Positions 27,325 to 38,083 of a stretch of 64,000 nt of DNA are shown here, piece by piece. The stretch is from Spirochaetota bacterium (GTDB taxonomy: Bacteria > Spirochaetota > UBA4802 > UBA5550). Both the position numbers and the translations under genes were made by a program. Below the pieces are notes generated by a model that was not told the DNA's origin, did no database searches, and was given only the letters and a program-made list of their open reading frames with translations. The stretch spans positions 204,064 to 268,063 of the forward strand of contig JAFGBT010000015.1 of the NCBI GenBank assembly GCA_016933025.1, in the 5' to 3' direction. Positions within the stretch are counted from its first letter, which is position 1, and the number at the start of each line of letters is the position of its first letter.

Positions 27325-27459
27325 TACCTTTCTCCTGCACGGCGTTTGCTGATCGCGCATACGCATCAATTTTAATGAGACGTTGTCAGAATTGACCGGG
27401 CACCTCGCGGTTTGGGGTTGTATTGCCGCGAAAAAAATAATGGGAATGGAGGGAGCGCT

Positions 27460-27879
27460 ATGGATGAGGGCGGGTGGAATTTATTTAAAGAGCATATCGG
27501 TTACACGGATGAAGAACTCAAGCTGTTTCGGGAGCGCGTGAAGGATGAAGAGCTGTCCAGGGCCATGGAGATAACCGGCAAGACGATAATAGCCGAGGTG
27601 GTCGAATCGCACGGGTGCAATAGCCGCCACCTGAAGGGCGATCGGTTCTTTCTGGACGGCGCCGGCAATCTGCTTTCGAAGCTGTGCCCGAAGAGAATGT
27701 GCATATATCTCATGGGTGCGCTCGAAACCGCCGTTTTCGGGGTCCAGGAATTATTTTACGCGGGCGCCGATCCCAATAACGTCCAGTTTAAGCGGTTCGG
27801 GTGCCGCGATGTCGGCGTGAAATGCGGCGGCTGGGGGCGCGTGGTCATGGAAATCAAAATGGTGGACCGGACCAAATAA
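27460..27879 (+). CDS. Small cysteine-rich protein, possibly TIGR04076-like
   Basis: A 139-residue protein. The ATG at 27460 has GGAGGGAG 6 bases upstream, which favours it over the in-frame TTG at 27412. The core, with SHGCNSRHLKGDRFFLDGAGNLLSKLCPKRMCIYLMGAL and FGCRDVGVKCGGWGRVVMEIKMV, resembles small TIGR04076-type proteins of unknown function (cysteine plus GD-F near the start, CP in the middle, a late cysteine). Five or more cysteines suggest metal binding or redox sensing. It is on the flagellar strand but 135 bases from the preceding gene and convergent with the thioesterase gene. Confidence 0.7.
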   Translation: MDEGGWNLFKEHIGYTDEELKLFRERVKDEELSRAMEITGKTIIAEVVESHGCNSRHLKGDRFFLDGAGNLLSKLCPKRMCIYLMGALETAVFGVQELFYAGADPNNVQFKRFGCRDVGVKCGGWGRVVMEIKMVDRTK

Positions 27880-27888
27880 CAAGCCGCA

Positions 27889-28332
27889 TCAGACGTCCGG
27901 GGCATTGTTGTGGATTCTGTCCGATTCTTCTTTTGAGACGGGAACGTACTTCCCGGTGGCCTTTACATATATTTCATTATTCATGTCGCTCACTTCTCCG
28001 AAGGTTATGCATAATATCTTCCTGTCGGAAAGTAGTCGTCCTTTTACAAGGTACGTCCCATTGGCGCTCATTGGTTTCAGGTATCGTACGGTAAATTCGG
28101 CTGTTACACAGAGCCGTTCTTTGGCTATAGTCGCGCTTAAAGCCATTGCCTCGTCCAGAAGGGCCGCTGATATGCCGCCGTGTATGAAGCCATGTCCGAT
28201 ATAATCTTCCCGCTGCTCAATTGTGGTGACGACATGCCCGCCCTCCAGCCAGAAGCGGTGTTTCAGCCCCCTGTGGTTTTGATCGCCGCAGACGTAACAC
28301 GCTTTGTGATTTGGGATGAGCACTTTATTCAT
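27889..28332 (-). CDS. PaaI-type hotdog-fold thioesterase
   Basis: A 147-residue hotdog thioesterase with the family stretch GHGFIHGGISAALLDEAMALSATIA (GxxHGG...DE catalytic helix) and AEFTVRYLKPM. The N-terminus has a C-x2-C plus H/C set (HKACYVCGDQNHRGL) seen in some PaaI relatives. It would hydrolyse an acyl-CoA or acyl-ACP thioester. It is the last gene of the minus-strand cluster, 2 bases after a radical SAM gene, and is a natural chain-release enzyme for that pathway. Confidence 0.9.
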   Translation of the reverse strand: MNKVLIPNHKACYVCGDQNHRGLKHRFWLEGGHVVTTIEQREDYIGHGFIHGGISAALLDEAMALSATIAKERLCVTAEFTVRYLKPMSANGTYLVKGRLLSDRKILCITFGEVSDMNNEIYVKATGKYVPVSKEESDRIHNNAPDV

Positions 28333-28334
28333 CG

Positions 28335-29663
28335 TTAACGTTCATGTGCCATCGCCGGCATGCCTGGCCGGCTGTTTTGCAGTTTTTTTATTCGCTGAAG
28401 GACTCTTCGTTTATTATAGTTATACGGGCTGTACACATTGCATATTGCATATTCATAAATGCCCATTAATTCTTCCCTGCTCATATGCGGATGCCTGAAC
28501 ACCACATGAAGTCCGTCATATTCGTCCCAGTTGTGGGACGTTATCAGTCCCCCGGTGAGCCATTCGCCGTATATCGGCAATTCGGGATATGGCGTGAATA
28601 TGATGAATATTATAATGTTTACGGGGAGCCTGCTCAGTTTATCGAGGTCTTCTTTTAACGACGGTACCGTGTCATTGGGAAGGCCCAGTATGTAGGTGCC
28701 TGACGTCGATACATTGTTTTCACGTAATTCGGAAAAGACCCTGTAGATCTTATCGCTCGATTGCCCTTTCTTCTGGTCCAGAAGGTTGGCGTCATTCATT
28801 GATTCAATCCCCATGTATACGCTGTCAAATCCGAATCTGGCGAGTTCCCTGACATTTCCTGTAATCAGGTCAACCCTTGAACTGCAAAACCACTTCATGC
28901 CGTATTTTTTCAATAATTCCAGTACTCTCCGGGCGTGTGTTCTGTGCTGCAGAAAGGTTTCGTCCCCGATATTGATATACCGGATTCCCATCTCTTTATA
29001 CGTTGCGAGCGCCCTTTCAATTTCTTTGATGGATAGTATATCTATATCAGGTGAGAATATTTTCGTGCAGCAGAATTCGCATTTGAACCTGCACCCTTTA
29101 ATCGTGAACAAGTATCCCGCCTCTTCCCCCGCCGGGAGCACCGAACTGAAGGGGGTTGTTATTATCGGGTGCCGGATGGCGTCGATTTTTTCGTTTTCTA
29201 TGAGCGATTTTAATTCGCGATCAGGATATCCGATGAATATTTTGTCGAAATGTGAAGAGGCGCCGGGCGTGAATGTGCCGTAATTGCCCGCCCAGACCTC
29301 CCTCACGCCGTTTTCCCGCGCTATCCCTGCCATTTTTACCGCGGCGTTGAAATTTGTTGTATAAAAGCTGATCCCCAGAACATCATAGCCCTGTTTTGTG
29401 GCGTCGTTGAATTCCCCCCACTCCGGGAACTCAAGAATGTCAACCGAGGGTATATTTTCCTTGAGAAAGCGGAGCCCGATAGCCGGCTGGCTTCTCCCGC
29501 CAAGGAATGATTCGTTATTCGCGATTTTAATGCATTCCTCAACGCTGGTTATCTTGGCCGGATCGATTTTCCTTCCCGGCACCTGGTTGACCATTGAGAT
29601 TTCAGGCATCGGTACCGTCGACAGGAGCACCTTTTTTCTTTTCTTTTTTACAATAAAATCCAT
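28335..29663 (-). CDS. B12-binding-domain-type radical SAM protein (cluster enzyme 3)
   Basis: A 442-residue radical SAM enzyme. The N-terminal Rossmann-like cobalamin-binding-type domain (about 55-165, GYDVLGISFYTTNFNAAVKMAGIA) lacks the DxHxxG cobalamin ligand motif. The cluster motif is C191-x3-C195-x2-C198 (GCRFKCEFCCTK), followed by ERALATYKEMGIRYINIGDETFL. The C-terminus has HVVFRHPHMSREELMGIYEYAICNVYSPYNY, similar in layout to the paralogues upstream. Its first 50 residues differ from theirs. The reaction is unknown; relatives include methylases and oxidative cyclases acting on lipids and tetrapyrroles. Confidence 0.85.
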   Translation of the reverse strand: MDFIVKKKRKKVLLSTVPMPEISMVNQVPGRKIDPAKITSVEECIKIANNESFLGGRSQPAIGLRFLKENIPSVDILEFPEWGEFNDATKQGYDVLGISFYTTNFNAAVKMAGIARENGVREVWAGNYGTFTPGASSHFDKIFIGYPDRELKSLIENEKIDAIRHPIITTPFSSVLPAGEEAGYLFTIKGCRFKCEFCCTKIFSPDIDILSIKEIERALATYKEMGIRYINIGDETFLQHRTHARRVLELLKKYGMKWFCSSRVDLITGNVRELARFGFDSVYMGIESMNDANLLDQKKGQSSDKIYRVFSELRENNVSTSGTYILGLPNDTVPSLKEDLDKLSRLPVNIIIFIIFTPYPELPIYGEWLTGGLITSHNWDEYDGLHVVFRHPHMSREELMGIYEYAICNVYSPYNYNKRRVLQRIKKLQNSRPGMPAMAHER

Positions 29664-29682
29664 GGCGGTAATTACTCACCTT

Positions 29683-31209
29683 CTAATAATTTACAGCCCT
29701 GGGCGCCCCCAGCAGCATGCTTCGTTCATGCAAATGCATTTTCAGAATGTTATTCAGCTTTTTCTGGTAGTCCTTTTCTTCTTCGGGATCCGGCTTATAG
29801 CAGGAGGGAAACTTGTACGATACATAATTAAAGCTCAGGTTTAACAGCAGGGTGTCTATCTTTTCTCTTATCAGCACGTTGCGAGGATTCGGCGAGAACG
29901 TGTCCCACAAATCCCACATCCCCATCAGCCTTTTCCAGATGTTTTTAAATGAATATACCTTTTGGTTTGCATAATAGTACCCGTCCTGAAGTTCATCCGG
30001 CGTCATTTTTTCGGGCATGAACTGAACAGTGGTACCCGTGTAGCGTTTCCAGTCATGAGACAGAACTCTTCCCTCTCGCTCTAAACGCTTCGTCAGAACC
30101 GTGCCCGGGAATGGAGTCACGCAGAAGAACTGCGGAAGACCCAGATGATTATCAATAACAAAATCCGCGGTATTTTCAAACACAGAAACGTCCTCGTTGT
30201 CATAACCGAGCACGAATGTGCTAATGATCGCCAATCCATATGATTGAATTTTTTTGATTTTCGTTGAATACTCTGCGATTTTATTCGCTGGATTCTTTTC
30301 CATGATCGCCAGTGTTTCTTCAGTTATGGACTCGAACCCGACTATCATCCTTGTGCCGCCGGACATCGCCAGTAGCTCGAGCAGTTCATTGTCATTGGCC
30401 ATGGCAAGGGATCCCTGGCTCATCCAGCTTATATTCAGCGGCGCAAGCGCGCGGCAGAGTTCTTTCGTGCGGCTCCTGATGGCCGAGATGTCGTCGTCGA
30501 CTATCATATACCGAGTGGTCTCTCCAAACCTGTCCTTGATCGACCTTATCTCCTCGATGACTTTTTCAATCGGTCTGAACCGGTATTTCGGGCCCCAGAG
30601 GAGGCTCACTGAGCAAAATTCGCATCTCATCGGGCAGCCCCTCATTGTTTGTATCATCGGGTTGTGATACGATTCCAGCTTAAGCTTGTCCCACCTGGGG
30701 AGCGGCTGGTCGGCGAGGTCTGGACGTTCGGATTCCTCCATCCTGTATATGCGCTTGAGAGAGCCGTTTTTGAAATCATTCAATATTGTGGCCATCAGAG
30801 TTTCAGCTTCGCCCAGGGCGAGGGAGTCGGCGTGTTCAAGCGCCTCATCGGGCATCATTGAGGCGTGATAACCGCCAATAATGACGGGTATCCCTTTTTC
30901 CCTGAATGTATCGGCAATGATGTAGCCGCGTGTCGCCTCGGTGGTAAAAAATGTTAATATCAACAGGTCTGTCTTTTTATCGAAGTCAATCTCCTCCACG
31001 TATTCGTCTATGAGCGTCACGTCAAATTCCTCCGGGACAAGGGACCCGAGAATTGCCAGGGTCAGAGACGTCCCGCTGGCCTTTTTTTTCAGGCTTCCCG
31101 ACATAACCGCAGCCCTGGATGAGTAGCCGAAGGCCAGATCCCAGAACTCAACCCGTTCGGGATCAAATAATTCTTTCTTTGGAAAAATTATCGTAATATT
31201 CTTTTTCAT
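29683..31209 (-). CDS. B12-binding-type radical SAM protein with DUF4070-like tail (cluster enzyme 2)
   Basis: A 508-residue protein. The N-terminal cobalamin-binding-type domain (about 50-150: FDVTLIDEYVEEIDFDKKTD, VIIGGYHASMMPDEAL, GEAE) has no DxHxxG motif. The radical SAM motif is C192-x3-C196-x2-C199 (MRGCPMRCEFCS). A C-terminal region (about 380-500) reads TVQFMPEKMTPDELQDGYYYANQKVYSFKNIWKRL, like the DUF4070 tail of HpnR-type enzymes. It is a close paralogue of the protein at 31290-32822, from which it is separated by an 80-base gap containing a hairpin. Substrate unknown; the neighbouring acyl carrier protein suggests a carrier-bound acyl chain. Confidence 0.87.
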   Translation of the reverse strand: MKKNITIIFPKKELFDPERVEFWDLAFGYSSRAAVMSGSLKKKASGTSLTLAILGSLVPEEFDVTLIDEYVEEIDFDKKTDLLILTFFTTEATRGYIIADTFREKGIPVIIGGYHASMMPDEALEHADSLALGEAETLMATILNDFKNGSLKRIYRMEESERPDLADQPLPRWDKLKLESYHNPMIQTMRGCPMRCEFCSVSLLWGPKYRFRPIEKVIEEIRSIKDRFGETTRYMIVDDDISAIRSRTKELCRALAPLNISWMSQGSLAMANDNELLELLAMSGGTRMIVGFESITEETLAIMEKNPANKIAEYSTKIKKIQSYGLAIISTFVLGYDNEDVSVFENTADFVIDNHLGLPQFFCVTPFPGTVLTKRLEREGRVLSHDWKRYTGTTVQFMPEKMTPDELQDGYYYANQKVYSFKNIWKRLMGMWDLWDTFSPNPRNVLIREKIDTLLLNLSFNYVSYKFPSCYKPDPEEEKDYQKKLNNILKMHLHERSMLLGAPRAVNY

Positions 31210-31232
31210 AGTATCTTCCCCTGATGAGTATC

Positions 31233-31260
31233 GGGACGCGACCGGGAGGGGCCGCGTCCC
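31233..31260 (-). other. Intra-operon hairpin between the paralogous radical SAM genes
   Basis: GGGACGCG (31233-31240) pairs perfectly with CGCGTCCC (31253-31260), with three further possible pairs inside. There is no U tract on the coding strand, so it is more likely a processing or stability element. Confidence 0.5.
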
Positions 31261-31289
31261 TGGGTGCCCGGCGGTCTTTACGGATCATG

Positions 31290-32822
31290 TCAAATGGCCG
31301 CAACATTCACTCCTGTATTGTTATCGACCACGGCGTTCATCATTTCGGTTCTTCTGCTGAGAAACCTCCGAAGCAGGGTGTTCAGCTTTTTCCTGTAATG
31401 CGCCTCTTCGTTGCTGTCTGCGTTGTAATTCAAGGGGTAACTGTAGGCGCATGCCCGGAAATTTTCATTGAGCAGCAAGGTGTCGATTTTTTCCTTAATT
31501 ATGACAGGTTCCCGCCTTCTTGCGTTTTCGTCCCACAGCCTCCAGAGCCCGTTTAACCGTTTCCATATGTTCTTATATGAATAGACTTTTTGAATCGTGT
31601 AGTAATACCCGTTTTGCAGTTGTTCCGGCGTCATGGTCTTTGGTATGAACTGCACCGTCGAGCCCGTGTAGAATTTCCAATCCCTGGAAAGTATTCTCCC
31701 TTCCTCCTCAAGCCTTTTTGTGAGGGCAGTTCCGGGAAACGGCGTCAGTGCGAATAATTGCGGCAGTGCAATGCAGTTATCAATGATGAAGTCCGCCGAA
31801 TTGTCGAAACTATCCATTCCGTCCGTGTCAAAACCGAAAACAAATGCGCCGATGATGGCCACTCCGTAGGATTGTATCTTCCTGATGTTTGCGATATAAT
31901 CCGATAATTTATTTGCCGGGTTTTTTTTCATTAGCCTGAGGCTTTCCTCGGATACCGATTCAAAGCCCATTATCATCCTCGTGCCCCCGGATTGCGTCAT
32001 GAGATCCAGGTATTCGTCGTCCTTCGCCATTGCCATTGAGCCCTGGCTCATCCATTGAATCTGCAGCGGGATCAAAGCCCTGAAAAGCTCTTTTGAGCGA
32101 TTTCTGTTCGCCGCAATATCATCATCGGAAATCATTATGAAGGTGTTTCTTCCGAAAGATTTTTTTAATGACTCTATTTCCTCGATGACTTTCTCGATCG
32201 GCTTATACCGGTACTTGGAGCCCCAATGAACCCGCACCGTGCAGAAATCGCATTTCATCGGGCAGCCCCTCATTGTCTGAATGGTCGGGTTAAAGTATGA
32301 GTTAAGCTTTAAGCAGTTGAAATGAGGTATAGGAAGATTGTCCAGGGCAGGCCTCTCATCATCATTTACCCTGTAAAATTTTTCCAATTTTCCTTTCCTG
32401 AAATCTTCAAGTATCTTCGGCAATAGAACCTCAGCTTCTCCGATGGCCACGGTGTCCGCATGAGTGATCGCTTCGTCCGGTGCCATGGAGGCATGGCAGC
32501 CTCCGATGACGACCGTTACATTTCGTTCCCTGAATGTATCGGCAATCGCATAACCCCTGGTAGCGGCAGTGGTGAAGAAGGTCAGCAGCAACAGGTCGGT
32601 TTCGATAGTAAAATCGATATCTTCGACGTTTTCATCGATCACCGTCACCTCAAAGTCGTCCGGTATTAATGAATGGAGTATCGGGAGGGCCATGGGCGTG
32701 CCGCTGTACTTGCGCTGCTGGATCCCGGCCGCCTTGGCCATAAATCCGAATTCCCAGAATTCCATTCTCCCCGGGTCAAATATCTCTCTTTTCGGCGAAA
32801 TTATCGTAATTTTATTTTTCAT
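31290..32822 (-). CDS. B12-binding-type radical SAM protein with DUF4070-like tail (cluster enzyme 1)
   Basis: A 510-residue paralogue of the next downstream protein, with the same order: start IISPKREIFDPGRMEFWEFGF, cobalamin-binding-type fold (FEVTVIDENVEDIDF, VVIGGCHASMAPDEAI), C187-x3-C191-x2-C194 (MRGCPMKCDFC), ISDDDIAANRNRSKELF, MIMGFESVSEESL and the tail TVQFIPKTMTPEQLQNGYYYTIQKVYSYKNIWKRL. Its start overlaps the acyl carrier protein stop by four bases (32819-32822), so the two are translationally coupled. That coupling supports a substrate carried on the ACP. Confidence 0.87.
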   Translation of the reverse strand: MKNKITIISPKREIFDPGRMEFWEFGFMAKAAGIQQRKYSGTPMALPILHSLIPDDFEVTVIDENVEDIDFTIETDLLLLTFFTTAATRGYAIADTFRERNVTVVIGGCHASMAPDEAITHADTVAIGEAEVLLPKILEDFRKGKLEKFYRVNDDERPALDNLPIPHFNCLKLNSYFNPTIQTMRGCPMKCDFCTVRVHWGSKYRYKPIEKVIEEIESLKKSFGRNTFIMISDDDIAANRNRSKELFRALIPLQIQWMSQGSMAMAKDDEYLDLMTQSGGTRMIMGFESVSEESLRLMKKNPANKLSDYIANIRKIQSYGVAIIGAFVFGFDTDGMDSFDNSADFIIDNCIALPQLFALTPFPGTALTKRLEEEGRILSRDWKFYTGSTVQFIPKTMTPEQLQNGYYYTIQKVYSYKNIWKRLNGLWRLWDENARRREPVIIKEKIDTLLLNENFRACAYSYPLNYNADSNEEAHYRKKLNTLLRRFLSRRTEMMNAVVDNNTGVNVAAI

Positions 32823-33106
32823 TTTGCCCTCGCTTGCGTCTCGATGCTTTTCGGAAGAACGCCTTCAGCCAGAATGAATTGATAAATATCGCCCATCGTC
32901 GCGATATTTTTAACCCTGTCTTCATCAATCGAAATTTCGAACCTGTCTTCGAACGACAGCATTATTTCGATTAAATCCAGTGAATCGGCCATCAGGTCAT
33001 CAACGAGTGACTTTTCCTCGGTGATCATCTGTATGGTGACGCCGTGCTTCTTGAGCACGCTTGCCACAACTTCATCAACGACTTGCTTGATTTCCTTGTA
33101 GTCCAT
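32819..33106 (-). CDS. Acyl carrier protein of the unknown cluster
   Basis: A 95-residue acyl carrier protein. The phosphopantetheine site is S42 in LMADSLDLIEIMLSFEDRF, matching the DSLDxxE motif. It is longer than housekeeping AcpP by an extended C-terminus (LPKSIETQARAK). It lies 31 bases after the degenerate KAS III gene and overlaps the first radical SAM gene by four bases. It is therefore a dedicated carrier for this pathway rather than the fatty-acid-synthesis ACP, for which no fab genes are present nearby. Confidence 0.93.
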   Translation of the reverse strand: MDYKEIKQVVDEVVASVLKKHGVTIQMITEEKSLVDDLMADSLDLIEIMLSFEDRFEISIDEDRVKNIATMGDIYQFILAEGVLPKSIETQARAK

Positions 33107-33137
33107 ATTTGTTCTCCTGAGGTTATTTTAGTGCGTA

Positions 33138-34028
33138 TCAGACCAGATACAGGCCGCATGCGGCCGTAAGCCCGGCTCCTGCGCCGATGAATAGTATCGC
33201 GTCATTGTCCCGCAGGTATCCCCGCTCACCCGCGATGTGATATCCCAGGATAAGGGCGGATGAATGCGGGTCGCCGAATTCGTCGTACAGATCGACCGTC
33301 TGGCTTCCGTCTATGCCGAGCGCTTTGGATAATTTTACGCTGAATCCGGAAACCGGCTGGGATGATATAATTGTTTTTATTTCCGATACCGGTATGGATC
33401 GGGATTGAAGGTAATCCCTGGCCGCAACAACGGAGAAATCATTAAGGCGGCCGTGATAATCATCGTCTATCTGGATGGTGACCTCCTTTCTTCCTTCATT
33501 GCCGAGTGCAATCAGGTCTGCGTACGAGCGCAGTCCGTGATTCCCGTCACTGGATGTCTTAAAGATGATTTCCCTGAACCCGTAGTTATTTGCTTCTGAA
33601 TGGGAGAGTAATACCGCGGCGCCGATTTTCGAGTAAGGAAATGCGGGGCTGTATTCCTTCGAGGGATGCACATCGCTGGAAATTATCAGGGCATTCGTAA
33701 TGGTGCCGTTTTTCATAAAATCTTCCACGACCCTGACGGCGTACAAAAAACCGCAGGCACCGTTCATAATATCGAAAGAGAATGTCGAGCCGCCGTTCGT
33801 ATTGTTCATTATGTCAAGGTTCATCCCGAGGCGATGCTGGATCAGGGCCGCCTGCGCCGGCTCGGCCATGTTGTCGTCCTTGTAGTTTCCTATACTTATC
33901 AGCATGTTGATCTCGTTCCTGTCAATTCCCGCTTTTTCCATGCACTGATCGGCGGCGCGAACTGCCAGGTCGATACAGCTTTTTATGCTGCAGTCTGTTA
34001 CAATTGAAGTTGATTTAATTCGCGCCAT
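33138..34028 (-). CDS. KAS III-like protein with incomplete catalytic triad
   Basis: A 296-residue thiolase-fold protein of the FabH group. The nucleophile C92 is kept (NGACGFLYA). The histidine position reads IISSQPVSGF, so S223 replaces the HQ histidine, and the asparagine loop reads FGDPHSS, with D253 in place of N. Condensation by the normal mechanism is therefore unlikely; acyl transfer, or a structural role beside the intact KAS III upstream, fits better. The ATG at 34028 has GGGAG 6 bases away and overlaps the upstream gene by 14 bases; an alternative in-frame start at 34049 would add seven residues. Confidence 0.83.
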   Translation of the reverse strand: MARIKSTSIVTDCSIKSCIDLAVRAADQCMEKAGIDRNEINMLISIGNYKDDNMAEPAQAALIQHRLGMNLDIMNNTNGGSTFSFDIMNGACGFLYAVRVVEDFMKNGTITNALIISSDVHPSKEYSPAFPYSKIGAAVLLSHSEANNYGFREIIFKTSSDGNHGLRSYADLIALGNEGRKEVTIQIDDDYHGRLNDFSVVAARDYLQSRSIPVSEIKTIISSQPVSGFSVKLSKALGIDGSQTVDLYDEFGDPHSSALILGYHIAGERGYLRDNDAILFIGAGAGLTAACGLYLV

Positions 34029-35058
34029 CTCGCACTCCCAGAGAGCCAATTTTTGCGGAAAGAAGTCCCAGCACCAAGCCGGATGCGGCGGAATAGAAGA
34101 GGACCCTGGACCCCCTGGGTATCTTTTTTTCCTTTATCGCATTGTGCAGGGCCACGAAATGGGACGTTGAAGCCGTGTTCCCGTATTCATCAACATTTAC
34201 GATTACCCCGCGCGGCTCCCAGTTAAAATAGTATTTCAGGTGTTGCCTGAAAAGCTCGATTACTTTTGGAGATGTCTGGTGATATATGTTGAAATCGTAG
34301 TCATCCATCTGGCTTTTATTGTTTTTCTCCAAAACGGTTTTCAGAAAAACGGGCAGGCGTTTAAAACTTTCGATATAAAGCTCCTTGGTTTTTGTGTACA
34401 TGGCGGGCCCGGGATTGCGGTTGCTCGGGACTCCGATGCAATGCTTCGCGAATGCCGCTATAGTGGTGAAATTAATGAATTCTATGCACTCGTTTTCATC
34501 ATCAGATCTATCAAGGATGAAGGCGGCGCCTGCATCGCCGACGGTAAGTGATGCGAGCTGGTCGTCATGCCTATCTTTTATTTCTTTGAGGGCCGTCTCG
34601 GAAATGGGCGTAATGCATTCTCCGCTTATGACCATGCCGTTTCTGACGCTGCCCGATCTGATCATATTATCCAGAATATACGCCCCGGTCAACATGCCTG
34701 CGCATGCGTTTGTGATGTCGAGGTTGATAGCCGAGTGTGCGCCCAGTCTGTTTTTTGCCAGGAGGCTTATTGCCGGCTCAAGATGATGCTTGAGCCCGCC
34801 GTGAAAACGGGTGATTGAAGAATAGATGACAACCTCGAGATCAGATGCCTTATATGACGAGTTCTTAAGGCAGTTCCCGGCCGCGGTTATCGCGATTTTT
34901 ACCGAATCCTCGGATTGTGCCCGCCATCTGCGCTTTTTAATTCCCGCTGTGTCTAATGCCAGGAGGATAGATGCATCCTTGCCGGTCAGAAGCTCTTCAT
35001 TTGTAACAATTTTCTCCGGAGTATAGGCGCCGATGCTTTCAAATTTGCTTTTATACAT
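34015..35058 (-). CDS. 3-oxoacyl-ACP synthase III-like condensing enzyme (intact triad)
   Basis: A 347-residue KAS III-type protein with all catalytic residues: C119 in TNACAGMLTG, H260 in NIYHQTSPKV and N294 in YGNTASTSH. It would join a primer acyl-CoA to a carrier-bound extender, or condense two acyl chains as OleA does; the sequence alone does not decide. It is the first gene of the minus-strand cluster and overlaps the degenerate KAS III gene by 14 bases, which suggests a heterodimer. The upstream 563-base gap has no clear minus-strand promoter. Confidence 0.88.
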   Translation of the reverse strand: MYKSKFESIGAYTPEKIVTNEELLTGKDASILLALDTAGIKKRRWRAQSEDSVKIAITAAGNCLKNSSYKASDLEVVIYSSITRFHGGLKHHLEPAISLLAKNRLGAHSAINLDITNACAGMLTGAYILDNMIRSGSVRNGMVISGECITPISETALKEIKDRHDDQLASLTVGDAGAAFILDRSDDENECIEFINFTTIAAFAKHCIGVPSNRNPGPAMYTKTKELYIESFKRLPVFLKTVLEKNNKSQMDDYDFNIYHQTSPKVIELFRQHLKYYFNWEPRGVIVNVDEYGNTASTSHFVALHNAIKEKKIPRGSRVLFYSAASGLVLGLLSAKIGSLGVRDGAN

Positions 35059-35621
35059 TGCTGTCCTGCCACTAATATGTTTTCAGAGTACCGTGGTGTT
35101 GCTGACATTTCATGTACCGATATGAATGGGCCAACGTGCGATACCCGCACTTTGCTCGCTGTCAGGCCGTCTGGAGGCTGACGTGAATGAGCAAGTGTTC
35201 AATTGGATCTGGTTTTATCCGGTATTTGTGTGAACAGGAGGAAATTTGAGGTTCTTTTATTGCGCCAACTCAAAAAAATAAATTGACAAATCAACCCTTT
35301 TTGATAAATTATTTAACAGATAGGGTTGATGTTTGTAGTATCCACCAAATACTCAAATTTCTTCCTATCATGGGGGGCGGTCAAGGCCCCCCGCTTATTA
35401 TATACCTCACCTTTTTACAAATTTTTGCATACCTTTGACCTCAATAAAATGTGAATTTATTAAATGGTAGTGGCGAGCCGCGTTCTGAAATAATTTTTGC
35501 TGTCTGTAAGGTTTTTTTATGTATATTTTTTTTATTTATTGAATAACAGATAACCGATTTTTCATATTTGTTTATTCTAACAGTTATTATGTCAACTATT
35601 TTTTAACGATTTTCCTTAAAA
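35059..35621. promoter_or_regulatory. 563-base AT-rich gap with inverted repeat and G/C hairpin
   Basis: A perfect 8-bp inverted repeat TCAACCCT (35291-35298) / AGGGTTGA (35332-35339) overlaps a plus-strand promoter-like pair, TTGACA (35283-35288) and TAAATT (35305-35310) at 16 bases. About 35 bases further is a strong hairpin GGGGGGC...GCCCCCC (about 35371-35391), followed by CGCTTATTATAT. This could give a short plus-strand RNA of about 80 bases, or be a regulatory region between the membrane-protein gene and the KAS III operon. No open reading frame was seen. Confidence 0.35.
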
Positions 35622-36053
35622 TCAGAGTTTTTGTTCAATCACTCTTGTTGCTTTAGACAGATAAAAAGCCATAAATACCAATGCAATGAGCAGGCCGATG
35701 ATTAAACATAAACCGTACATCCCATTATGAAGCATCATGAATAAAACGGTCAGCTGGGGAATCAGCAGTATAATCATTACGGCCCATCTCGCCCAGTTTT
35801 CTCCCTTCATTAAGGGTTGCTTGATCAGCATGATGGAAGCAATCCCAAGGGCGATAATTAAACTGCCCATTATTCTATAAGATGCAAATAGGAGCTGCAG
35901 CCATCGGGCGCTTACCTGTTCCTGTGTGATGCCCAGAAATTTTTCGTGGTATGGCAGCATTTTTTGCGTTAGCAAGTATACTGCGCCGATACACATTCCG
36001 GCCGCACAAACCGCATAAAAAAGCAGTGAAGCGATTTTTAAACGCTTGTTCAT
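35622..36053 (-). CDS. Small four-helix membrane protein of unknown function
   Basis: A 143-residue protein with four hydrophobic segments: IASLLFYAVCAAGMCIGAVY, IMGSLIIALGIASIML, WAVMIILLIPQLTVLFMML and GLCLIIGLLIALVFMAFYL. The ATG at 36053 has a strong AGGAGGG site, so the in-frame 26-residue extension to 36131 is rejected. There is no recognised family. It lies between the KAS III operon and the divergent acyl-activating enzyme and shares their AT-rich composition; whether it belongs to the pathway is uncertain. Confidence 0.75.
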   Translation of the reverse strand: MNKRLKIASLLFYAVCAAGMCIGAVYLLTQKMLPYHEKFLGITQEQVSARWLQLLFASYRIMGSLIIALGIASIMLIKQPLMKGENWARWAVMIILLIPQLTVLFMMLHNGMYGLCLIIGLLIALVFMAFYLSKATRVIEQKL

Positions 36054-36427
36054 TTTAACCCTCCTGGTCAACAATATGCCTCCATCGCGATCGATTTGCG
36101 ATCCGGGCTTTGTGAAACAGTTATTTCTCATGCCCGACTGAAGACGCCTTCTTCAAGGTGCAGGGCAATTCTTCAGGTATGGTATTGTTGAATTTTTTTT
36201 GTAATTACGGTTGAGCTGACTCGGAAAATTGTCAAGATAATTATTCAATCAACAGCCGACCGGCAGCGGTCCAAAATGATTATTCACGGCAAGGGGATGA
36301 ACAAAAACTTGACAACTGTAACGTTTTCCCCATACATGAAAAACCATACGGCCTGCTGCAATGCGCCAGTCACGTGCTCTATGTGCCGTGCGGGCTATGA
36401 TTTCAATATTGCGCTCTTATTTGAAAA
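36054..36427. promoter_or_regulatory. 374-base divergent control region
   Basis: Plus-strand TTGACA (36309-36314) and TACATG (36333-36338) at 18 bases could drive the acyl-activating enzyme gene. A perfect palindrome TGAAGA-CGCCT-TCTTCA (36139-36155) lies on the side of the membrane-protein gene. Nothing else was recognised. Confidence 0.35.
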
Positions 36428-37894
36428 ATGAAAATTGACACGCATGAAACAGCCAATATCCATAACCTGCTGGAACGTAATGCGGCGGAAAAACCCGACG
36501 CTCCTTTTTTTATTATTAATCACAAGGCCATTAGCTATTCCGCAGGTTTGTCAGTCGTGGAAAAGCTTGCGGGTTATTTGCGGAAAATCGGGATCTGCGA
36601 AGGCGACAGGGTTGTGCTGAACCTTGGGAACAATCCCGAGTTTATTTTCTGCTTTCTCGCCGTCGCGCAGATAGGTGCCATATCCGTTTTGGTAAATCCA
36701 CTGGCGAAAAGATACGAATTGGCGAGTTATGTAAACGCGTCGCGGCCCGCACTGGTGATAACTGATTCTTCACAGATGGGTAATTTCCAGATCAATAATG
36801 AGTTCATTTTCCCCGCTGACAAAATAATTAATATTGATAATAGCATGTCCGGCAACAATCTCCTGAGAGTGATTGAAGGCATGGAGCCTTATAAAGGCTA
36901 TAGTAAAAAGTCCGGGAAAGAGGCAGTGTCTATAATCTTCACGTCTGCGATCGAAGGCGAGCCCCTGGGCGCAATGGTTTCGCATGCCTGCATATGCGAT
37001 ACGTCGCTGGGCGTCGCGGATTATGCCCTGGATAATGATATGTTCATGGCGGTTCTCCCTCTGTTCCATATTTTTGGACTTATCTCGTCCTTTATTTCGC
37101 CCCTTTTGTGCGGTTTGCCCTTTTATCTGATCGGCTCGTTTTCTCCGAGGAAAATAATTGAGTTTTTCAGGTCCACGAAGGCCAGCATATTCATTGGTGT
37201 GCCGATAATGTATCAGATATTCGATATACTGTTTAAGGATAAAGTTGCTTTTCCTAATATGAGGCTGTGGATATCAGGCGGAGAGGCACTATCGCCAGCT
37301 TTGCAGATAAAATTTAGAGCCCAGTATAATATTGACATCAGGCAGGGGTACGGCCTGACTGAGGCATCTCCCATAGTTGCGTGGAATAATACCCGCATAG
37401 ATAACAAAATAGGAACGGTCGGCACGCCCATGCCGTGGAATGAAGTGAAAATAATGTTGGAGGGGAAAGAGGCGGCCACGGGGGAATCTGGCGAAGTTGT
37501 CGTCAGGGGGGATAGTGTTACGTCCGGTTATTACGGCAGGCCTGACAAAACAGCCGAAGTGCTTGCCGGTGGATGGCTTCACACCGGCGATATCGGATCA
37601 TTTGACGATGTCGGTTATCTGACCATTAAGGGCAGAAAAAAGAATATGATCATAAAAAACGGGTTGAATGTGTACCCCAGAGAGGTGGAGAGAATCATGA
37701 GACATCATCCCTCGATCAGAGAAGCGTATGTCAGGCCGGTCATATCTGAAAGCGATGGCGTCCCGGTTGAAACGCTTTCCGCAACGGTTTATTCTGCGGG
37801 GGGAGGAGCCCTTACGGTTGAAAATATTATCGAATGGTGCCAGGATAATATGTCCAAATATAAAATACCGGATGTCATTGTGATCAAGGACTGA
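36428..37894 (+). CDS. Divergent AMP-forming acyl-CoA/ACP ligase lacking the C-terminal catalytic lysine
   Basis: A 488-residue ANL-superfamily protein. The fold motifs are present: LPLFHIFGL, IFIGVPIMYQ, ISGGEALSP, GYGLTEASPIVAWN, GGWLHTGDIG and KGRKKNMIIKNGLNVYPREVE. Two features are abnormal. The ATP-gripping loop, normally YTSGTTGxPKG, reads FTSAIEGEPLGA (171-182), losing the lysine and most glycines. The chain also stops at YKIPDVIVIKD, before the TGK lysine that drives adenylation in the family. Neither other frame continues the homology. Loading of a fatty acid onto the cluster ACP, or a non-adenylating role, are both possible. Confidence 0.85.
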   Translation: MKIDTHETANIHNLLERNAAEKPDAPFFIINHKAISYSAGLSVVEKLAGYLRKIGICEGDRVVLNLGNNPEFIFCFLAVAQIGAISVLVNPLAKRYELASYVNASRPALVITDSSQMGNFQINNEFIFPADKIINIDNSMSGNNLLRVIEGMEPYKGYSKKSGKEAVSIIFTSAIEGEPLGAMVSHACICDTSLGVADYALDNDMFMAVLPLFHIFGLISSFISPLLCGLPFYLIGSFSPRKIIEFFRSTKASIFIGVPIMYQIFDILFKDKVAFPNMRLWISGGEALSPALQIKFRAQYNIDIRQGYGLTEASPIVAWNNTRIDNKIGTVGTPMPWNEVKIMLEGKEAATGESGEVVVRGDSVTSGYYGRPDKTAEVLAGGWLHTGDIGSFDDVGYLTIKGRKKNMIIKNGLNVYPREVERIMRHHPSIREAYVRPVISESDGVPVETLSATVYSAGGGALTVENIIEWCQDNMSKYKIPDVIVIKD

Positions 37895-37946
37895 ATCGTG
37901 CGTCTGGAGGGGCCGATGATGCCATGACGGGCGCGATGCTTCAGGT

Positions 37947-37970
37947 GCCAGCCCGTGCGCATGGGCTGGC
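37947..37970 (+). terminator. Hairpin after the ligase gene
   Basis: GCCAGCCC (37947-37954) and GGGCTGGC (37963-37970) form a perfect 8-bp stem around GTGCGCAT. The tail is not U-rich, so termination is uncertain. Confidence 0.4.
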
Positions 37971-38083
37971 GGGGCGCGAAGACGCAAATATGACTTGATT
38001 TATTTCATCATGCAATATATTATCCCGTGATAGTGAGGGCAGTTTTTCCGGAATAAAATTTTAAAAATACCGGCAGGAATGAA

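Follow-up and report, generated by a model that had tools for sequence, protein, structure and literature searches.

We analysed a 64,000-nucleotide stretch of DNA (the window) from an uncultured Spirochaetota bacterium whose genome encodes spirochaete-type flagellins (contig JAFGBT010000015.1 of assembly GCA_016933025.1), in which seven intact, codirectional genes are packed on the minus strand (27889-35058). In order they encode two ketoacyl synthase III (KAS III) proteins, KAS1 and KAS2, an acyl carrier protein (ACP), three radical S-adenosylmethionine (SAM) proteins (rSAM3, rSAM2 and rSAM1) and a hotdog-fold thioesterase. Judged by their sequences, KAS1 and KAS2 are a KAS III pair of the kind represented by LstA/LstB of lipstatin synthesis and by OleA. 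The pair is thus of an already known kind; what is new is that the ACP, the radical SAM proteins and the thioesterase replace OleB, OleC and OleD. This combination is absent from all other genomes searched, and the operon therefore probably makes an unusual, undescribed long-chain lipid.

Reading frames and profile searches confirm that the genes named in a preliminary description of this DNA are present and intact. The close spacing reported there also holds: KAS1 and KAS2 overlap by 14 bases (given a KAS2 start at ATG 34028), ACP and rSAM3 overlap by 4 bases, and 2 bases separate rSAM1 from the thioesterase gene. The other gaps are 31 bases (KAS2-ACP), 80 bases (rSAM3-rSAM2) and 19 bases (rSAM2-rSAM1). 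This supports the earlier view of a single compact operon that is built on an acyl carrier and includes radical SAM enzymes.

The KAS1-KAS2 pair and its relatives

KAS1 (34015..35058) matches PF08541 and PF08545 above cut-off and carries the full Cys-His-Asn triad of a catalytic subunit (C119, H260, N294). KAS2 (33138..34028; its start is taken as ATG 34028, with an upstream TTG at 34049 also possible) has Q and D in place of the triad His and Asn and keeps Glu56-Pro57. The preliminary description took it for a degenerate KAS III, but the pattern among relatives contradicts this. All 37 distinct relatives of KAS2, drawn from Spirochaetota, Desulfobacterota, Actinomycetota and other groups, have its Glu-Pro, whereas their Cys is variable; in an alignment of the matching KAS1 relatives it is the Glu that varies and the triad that never changes. 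Adjacent KAS1-KAS2 tandems are found in 32 loci, and the KAS1 of the window is 46-51% identical to that of other tandem pairs. Over these 32 loci the KAS1 and KAS2 distances covary (Mantel r 0.95, 0 of 2000 permutations), a correlation to which shared genome ancestry contributes. The AlphaFold model of KAS2 (pLDDT 89) has a complete KAS III fold, with Z 31-34 to FabH, OleA and PqsD. Invariant Glu, triad pattern, covariation with KAS1 and full fold therefore point to a partner subunit conserved across phyla, and we reject KAS2 as a pseudogene. In the KAS1 tree, the placement of the window protein inside the spirochaete group is weakly resolved.

The closest parallel is found in lipstatin synthesis of Streptomyces toxytricini. 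The triad of LstA is C128/H271/N305, and LstA C128 and H271 as well as LstB E60 are essential for activity (review, PMC12141560); in OleA, Glu117-Pro is supplied by the partner subunit (PMC7064751). As in LstA/LstB, the two KAS III genes of the window are adjacent, their products are only ~21-23% identical to each other, the triad lies in the A subunit and the Glu lies at a near-equal position in the B subunit (E60 in LstB, E56 in KAS2). The triad spacing is similar too, with 141 and 34 residues in KAS1 against 143 and 34 in LstA. The remaining genes differ: the lipstatin cluster contains an acyl-CoA ligase, a 3-beta-hydroxysteroid dehydrogenase-type reductase, a nonribosomal peptide synthetase and a formyltransferase, where the window has an ACP, three radical SAM proteins and a thioesterase instead.

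Three further KAS1-KAS2 pairs are encoded in the same genome (contigs C38, C41 and C20). The pair on C38 (L036:9937-15599) heads an OleB-OleC fusion and OleD, which makes a complete head-to-head hydrocarbon cluster in a spirochaete; its OleC and OleD score 657 and 451 bits against NCBIfam models, under the curated cut-offs and far above other families. The pair on C41 (L038) stands alone without Ole partners. At four Desulfobacterota loci (L120, L126, L127, L128) the pair is followed by OleB, OleC and OleD, so that both there and on C38 it occupies the place of OleA, which in its classical form is a homodimer. Another pair (L042) is accompanied by OleC and OleD only, and one in genome G004 (L041:1593-8506) by both parts of aconitase X, an OleD-like reductase and a fusion of old yellow enzyme and pyridine-nucleotide oxidoreductase. 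Within one uncultured spirochaete family the pair thus occurs in at least four contexts (with OleBC-OleD, with OleC and OleD only, with aconitase X and an OleD-like reductase, and with ACP and radical SAM genes), which form a natural series for testing what it condenses.

The operon had been called unlike known KAS III systems. For the KAS genes this exclusion of Ole chemistry is wrong, because a paralogous pair in the same genome heads an OleBC-OleD cluster. It is the rest of the operon that departs from OleABCD: open reading frames and Pfam and NCBIfam profile searches reveal no OleB, OleC or OleD in the island that holds the operon, nor any reductase (ketoreductase included) or beta-lactone synthetase.

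B12-type radical SAM genes also lie a few kb from KAS1-KAS2 pairs at three Desulfobacterota loci (L126:4529-6085, L120:13440-14921 and L124:12777-14339). We do not count this as evidence, because such genes are too common in those genomes and the proximity may be due to chance.

Acyl carrier, radical SAM proteins and their parallels

The dedicated ACP (32819..33106) scores 33.0 bits against PF00550 (cut-off 20.8), and the serine of its phosphopantetheine site ADSLD stands in the expected motif. All three radical SAM proteins, rSAM3 (31290..32822), rSAM2 (29683..31209) and the divergent rSAM1 (28335..29663), have the CxxxCxxC cluster motif (C191/C195/C198 in rSAM1). DUF4070 (PF13282) is matched above cut-off in rSAM2 and rSAM3 only; rSAM3 also matches PF04055 above cut-off. 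They had been described as three enzymes of the cobalamin type. Their radical SAM nature stands, while the B12-binding domain PF02310 stays below threshold in rSAM2 and rSAM3 (22.9 and 27.6 against 32.1 bits) and has no match in rSAM1. With these scores, cobalamin dependence of the three proteins is likely.

rSAM2 and rSAM3 are a recent tandem duplicate; they are ~60% identical and are sisters with full support in the radical SAM tree. Both belong to the HpnJ/BchE/ladderane-rSAM superfamily, in which they reach no curated family cut-off. The operon resembles ladderane-type clusters (TIGR04072; Kuenenia, Desulfotalea) in having radical SAM genes, probably of the cobalamin type, beside ACP and ketosynthase genes. 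However, the three proteins score 83, 80 and 36 bits against TIGR04072 (80-83 for rSAM2 and rSAM3), far from the cut-off of 360, and the island has no FabF, FabZ, FabG or desaturase genes. Relatives of rSAM1 were found only in the congener G002 and, from another phylum, in G509 and G675, with a weak match in G202; no KAS pair was found near the relatives in G509 and G675, on contigs of just 5-7 kb. The predicted structure of rSAM1 (pLDDT 45) was discarded.

The thioesterase (27889..28332) matches PF03061 (4HBT) above cut-off at 36.4 bits, has an HGG..LLDEA motif, and its closest solved structures are hotdog thioesterases. Its earlier assignment to PaaI holds for the fold and fails for the equivalog TIGR02286 (23.9 against 118.9 bits). 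Divergently from the operon, on the plus strand, lies a gene for an AMP-ligase-like protein (36428..37894; PF00501, 214.9 bits). Its P-loop is altered (TSAIEGEPLGAMVSH): GEPLGAMVSH replaces the PKG motif and the usual lysine is gone. The C-terminus, KYKIPDVIVIKD, comes before the A10 lysine motif.

An ACP gene directly precedes a B12-type radical SAM gene at seven Spirochaetota loci, the window included, and five of the six others belong to a five-gene module (L107:4046-13346 on contig C27 of the same genome; also L106, L110, L118 and L140). This module encodes a PilZ-methyltransferase (~1180 aa), an AMP-ligase without A10 motif, an ACP, a B12-type radical SAM protein and a hybrid histidine kinase with HD-GYP, and occurs in four members of the genus as well as in one distant family of Spirochaetota. 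It looks like a cyclic di-GMP-linked system making and sensing an acyl-derived signal. The window shares with it the row of ligase, ACP and radical SAM genes; the module ligases also have the altered P-loop (PLGA; compared in four of the five) and lack the A10 motif. However, the module has no KAS or thioesterase gene, and its radical SAM proteins form a separate, monophyletic clade that excludes rSAM2 and rSAM3. A derivation of the ACP-rSAM part of the window from this module is therefore unsupported, and the tree shows that the association arose separately and in parallel. By analogy, these ACP-rSAM parallels support a possible action of the radical SAM proteins on an ACP-bound substrate.

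In the congener G002, a cluster (L105:8068-19803) has an rSAM1-like gene adjoining an rSAM2/3-like gene, together with genes for a FabK-like NMO protein, FabG, ACP, FabZ, two FabF and components of a 2-hydroxyacyl-CoA dehydratase. It is possibly an anaerobic lipid-modifying cluster.

The sub-modules of the operon thus recur: the KAS1-KAS2 tandem, the ACP adjoining a cobalamin-type radical SAM gene, and rSAM1 beside an rSAM2/3-like gene. The whole set does not. It was found elsewhere neither at the 28 KAS2 loci from a KAS2-motif scan of ~85,000 species (a single motif, with which distant pairs may be missed) nor in 393 Spirochaetota genomes and 345 genomes of a second phylum, so the co-occurrence in unrelated genomes that would have marked it as a conserved system was not observed. 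Among the loci compared, only the window has its pair beside ACP and radical SAM genes. The open-access papers searched contain no description of the gene set. The view that it matches no described set and is probably lipid-related is supported.

A candidate pathway and its alternatives

We lean, on balance, towards a head-to-head pathway based on a KAS III heterodimer, in which radical enzymes modify a chain bound to a dedicated ACP. The sequence itself shows the gene order, the protein families, the KAS1 triad, the Glu of the partner and the inserted block; dimerisation, substrates, order of steps and product we infer as follows. Cys119 of KAS1 would take one long acyl group, and Glu56 of KAS2, contributed across the dimer interface, would act as base. 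A second acyl thioester would then be joined head to head in a non-decarboxylative Claisen condensation, that is without loss of CO2, with an alpha-alkyl-beta-keto acid or thioester as the product. The ACP would carry one acyl partner or the product, possibly loaded by the AMP-ligase-like protein. The radical SAM proteins, probably cobalamin-dependent, would alter unactivated carbons of the ACP-bound chain, for example by C-methylation, and the thioesterase would free the product or clear stalled thioesters. With neither a reductase nor a beta-lactone synthetase in the island, synthesis may stop at the beta-keto acid; after release, decarboxylation of this acid could yield a branched long-chain ketone. 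Alternatively, the acid may be passed to the OleB, OleC and OleD enzymes of contig C38.

Several observations weigh against this pathway. The complete set is seen only once, and no OleC, OleD or ketoreductase lies within the island. The B12-binding matches are below threshold or missing, rSAM2 and rSAM3 branch apart from the radical SAM proteins encoded beside ACP genes elsewhere, and the AMP-ligase is missing the P-loop and A10 lysines, two motifs on which adenylation normally depends. Furthermore, LstAB and OleA use acyl-CoA, whereas use of acyl-ACP by KAS1/KAS2 is a prediction.

Olefins and beta-lactones such as lipstatin are known products of head-to-head condensation. The coupling of this chemistry to radical SAM enzymes and a dedicated ACP would give access to modified-chain products and possibly to an ACP-dependent form of the reaction. 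More tentatively, the operon could define a new class of head-to-head lipids, in which the LstAB-type pair joins two chains, at least one of which sits on the dedicated ACP, where three cobalamin radical SAM enzymes modify its unactivated carbons. The product, so far unknown from nature, would be a ketone, beta-keto acid or olefin with branches or rings.

Some KAS III heterodimers use other acceptors, for example PqsBC with 2-aminobenzoylacetate, and there are pyrone-forming KAS III enzymes. The window pair might likewise join an acyl chain to another nucleophile and yield a heterocycle or signalling molecule; besides the precedent of the PqsBC heterodimer, a relationship to PqsC and PqsD can be detected, and the KAS2 model has PqsD as one of its best structural matches. 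We consider this unlikely, however: the invariant Glu-Pro of KAS2 is an OleA/LstB signature, and the nearest relatives of the pair head Ole clusters. There is also a small chance that two pathways lie side by side, the pair feeding Ole enzymes elsewhere and the ACP, radical SAM and thioesterase genes being an unrelated lipid-modifying set in the same insertion. The stand-alone pair on C41, the ACP-rSAM modules without KAS genes and the OleB, OleC and OleD encoded on C38 would fit such an arrangement; the codirectional order of all seven genes with overlaps or short gaps, only 31 bases between KAS2 and ACP, argues against it.

A decaying or non-functional remnant is very improbable. The set is unique and the ligase has lost its P-loop and A10 lysines, but all frames are open and the motifs of KAS1, ACP, radical SAM proteins and thioesterase are intact; moreover, the loss in the ligase is not simple decay, because the same A10-less end is conserved in the PilZ five-gene module. 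KAS1 can hardly be an ordinary FabH-type starter of fatty acid synthesis, since its matches to FabH models all score far below cut-off (137.7 against 249), it is paired with KAS2 and the island has no FabD, FabG, FabZ or FabF.

Origin and surroundings of the island

The operon lies in a block of ~10 kb that is inserted relative to five congeners (27325..37985, the right end being approximate). In all five, the same flagellar gene (left) and argH (right) are neighbours: four have a spacer of ~130-290 bases there, and the fifth carries a small insert unlike the island. Congener-like sequence resumes ~100 bases before argH, near 37990. The genes of the block, from thioesterase to AMP-ligase, have a GC content of 0.43-0.51 and a GC at third codon positions of 0.50-0.61, against 0.57-0.60 and 0.74-0.79 in flanking genes. 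The lower GC of the block, and the fact that none of the five congeners has it at this site, suggest that it is probably an acquired island, although it may instead have been lost in the congeners. No integrase was seen at the island.

At its left end, the block holds a 155-aa open reading frame without family (27412..27879, plus strand) that has no counterpart at this site in the congeners. Also inside the island is a small membrane protein of 169 aa (35622..36131, minus strand) without Pfam or NCBIfam match. It does lie upstream of KAS1, as described before, but its membership of the operon is unsupported, because 563 AT-rich bases separate the two genes and it has no Pfam match. A scan for consensus promoters gave matches at chance level. 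Within the AT-rich gap lies a GC-rich inverted repeat (35371-35393), which could be a plus-strand terminator or a regulatory hairpin.

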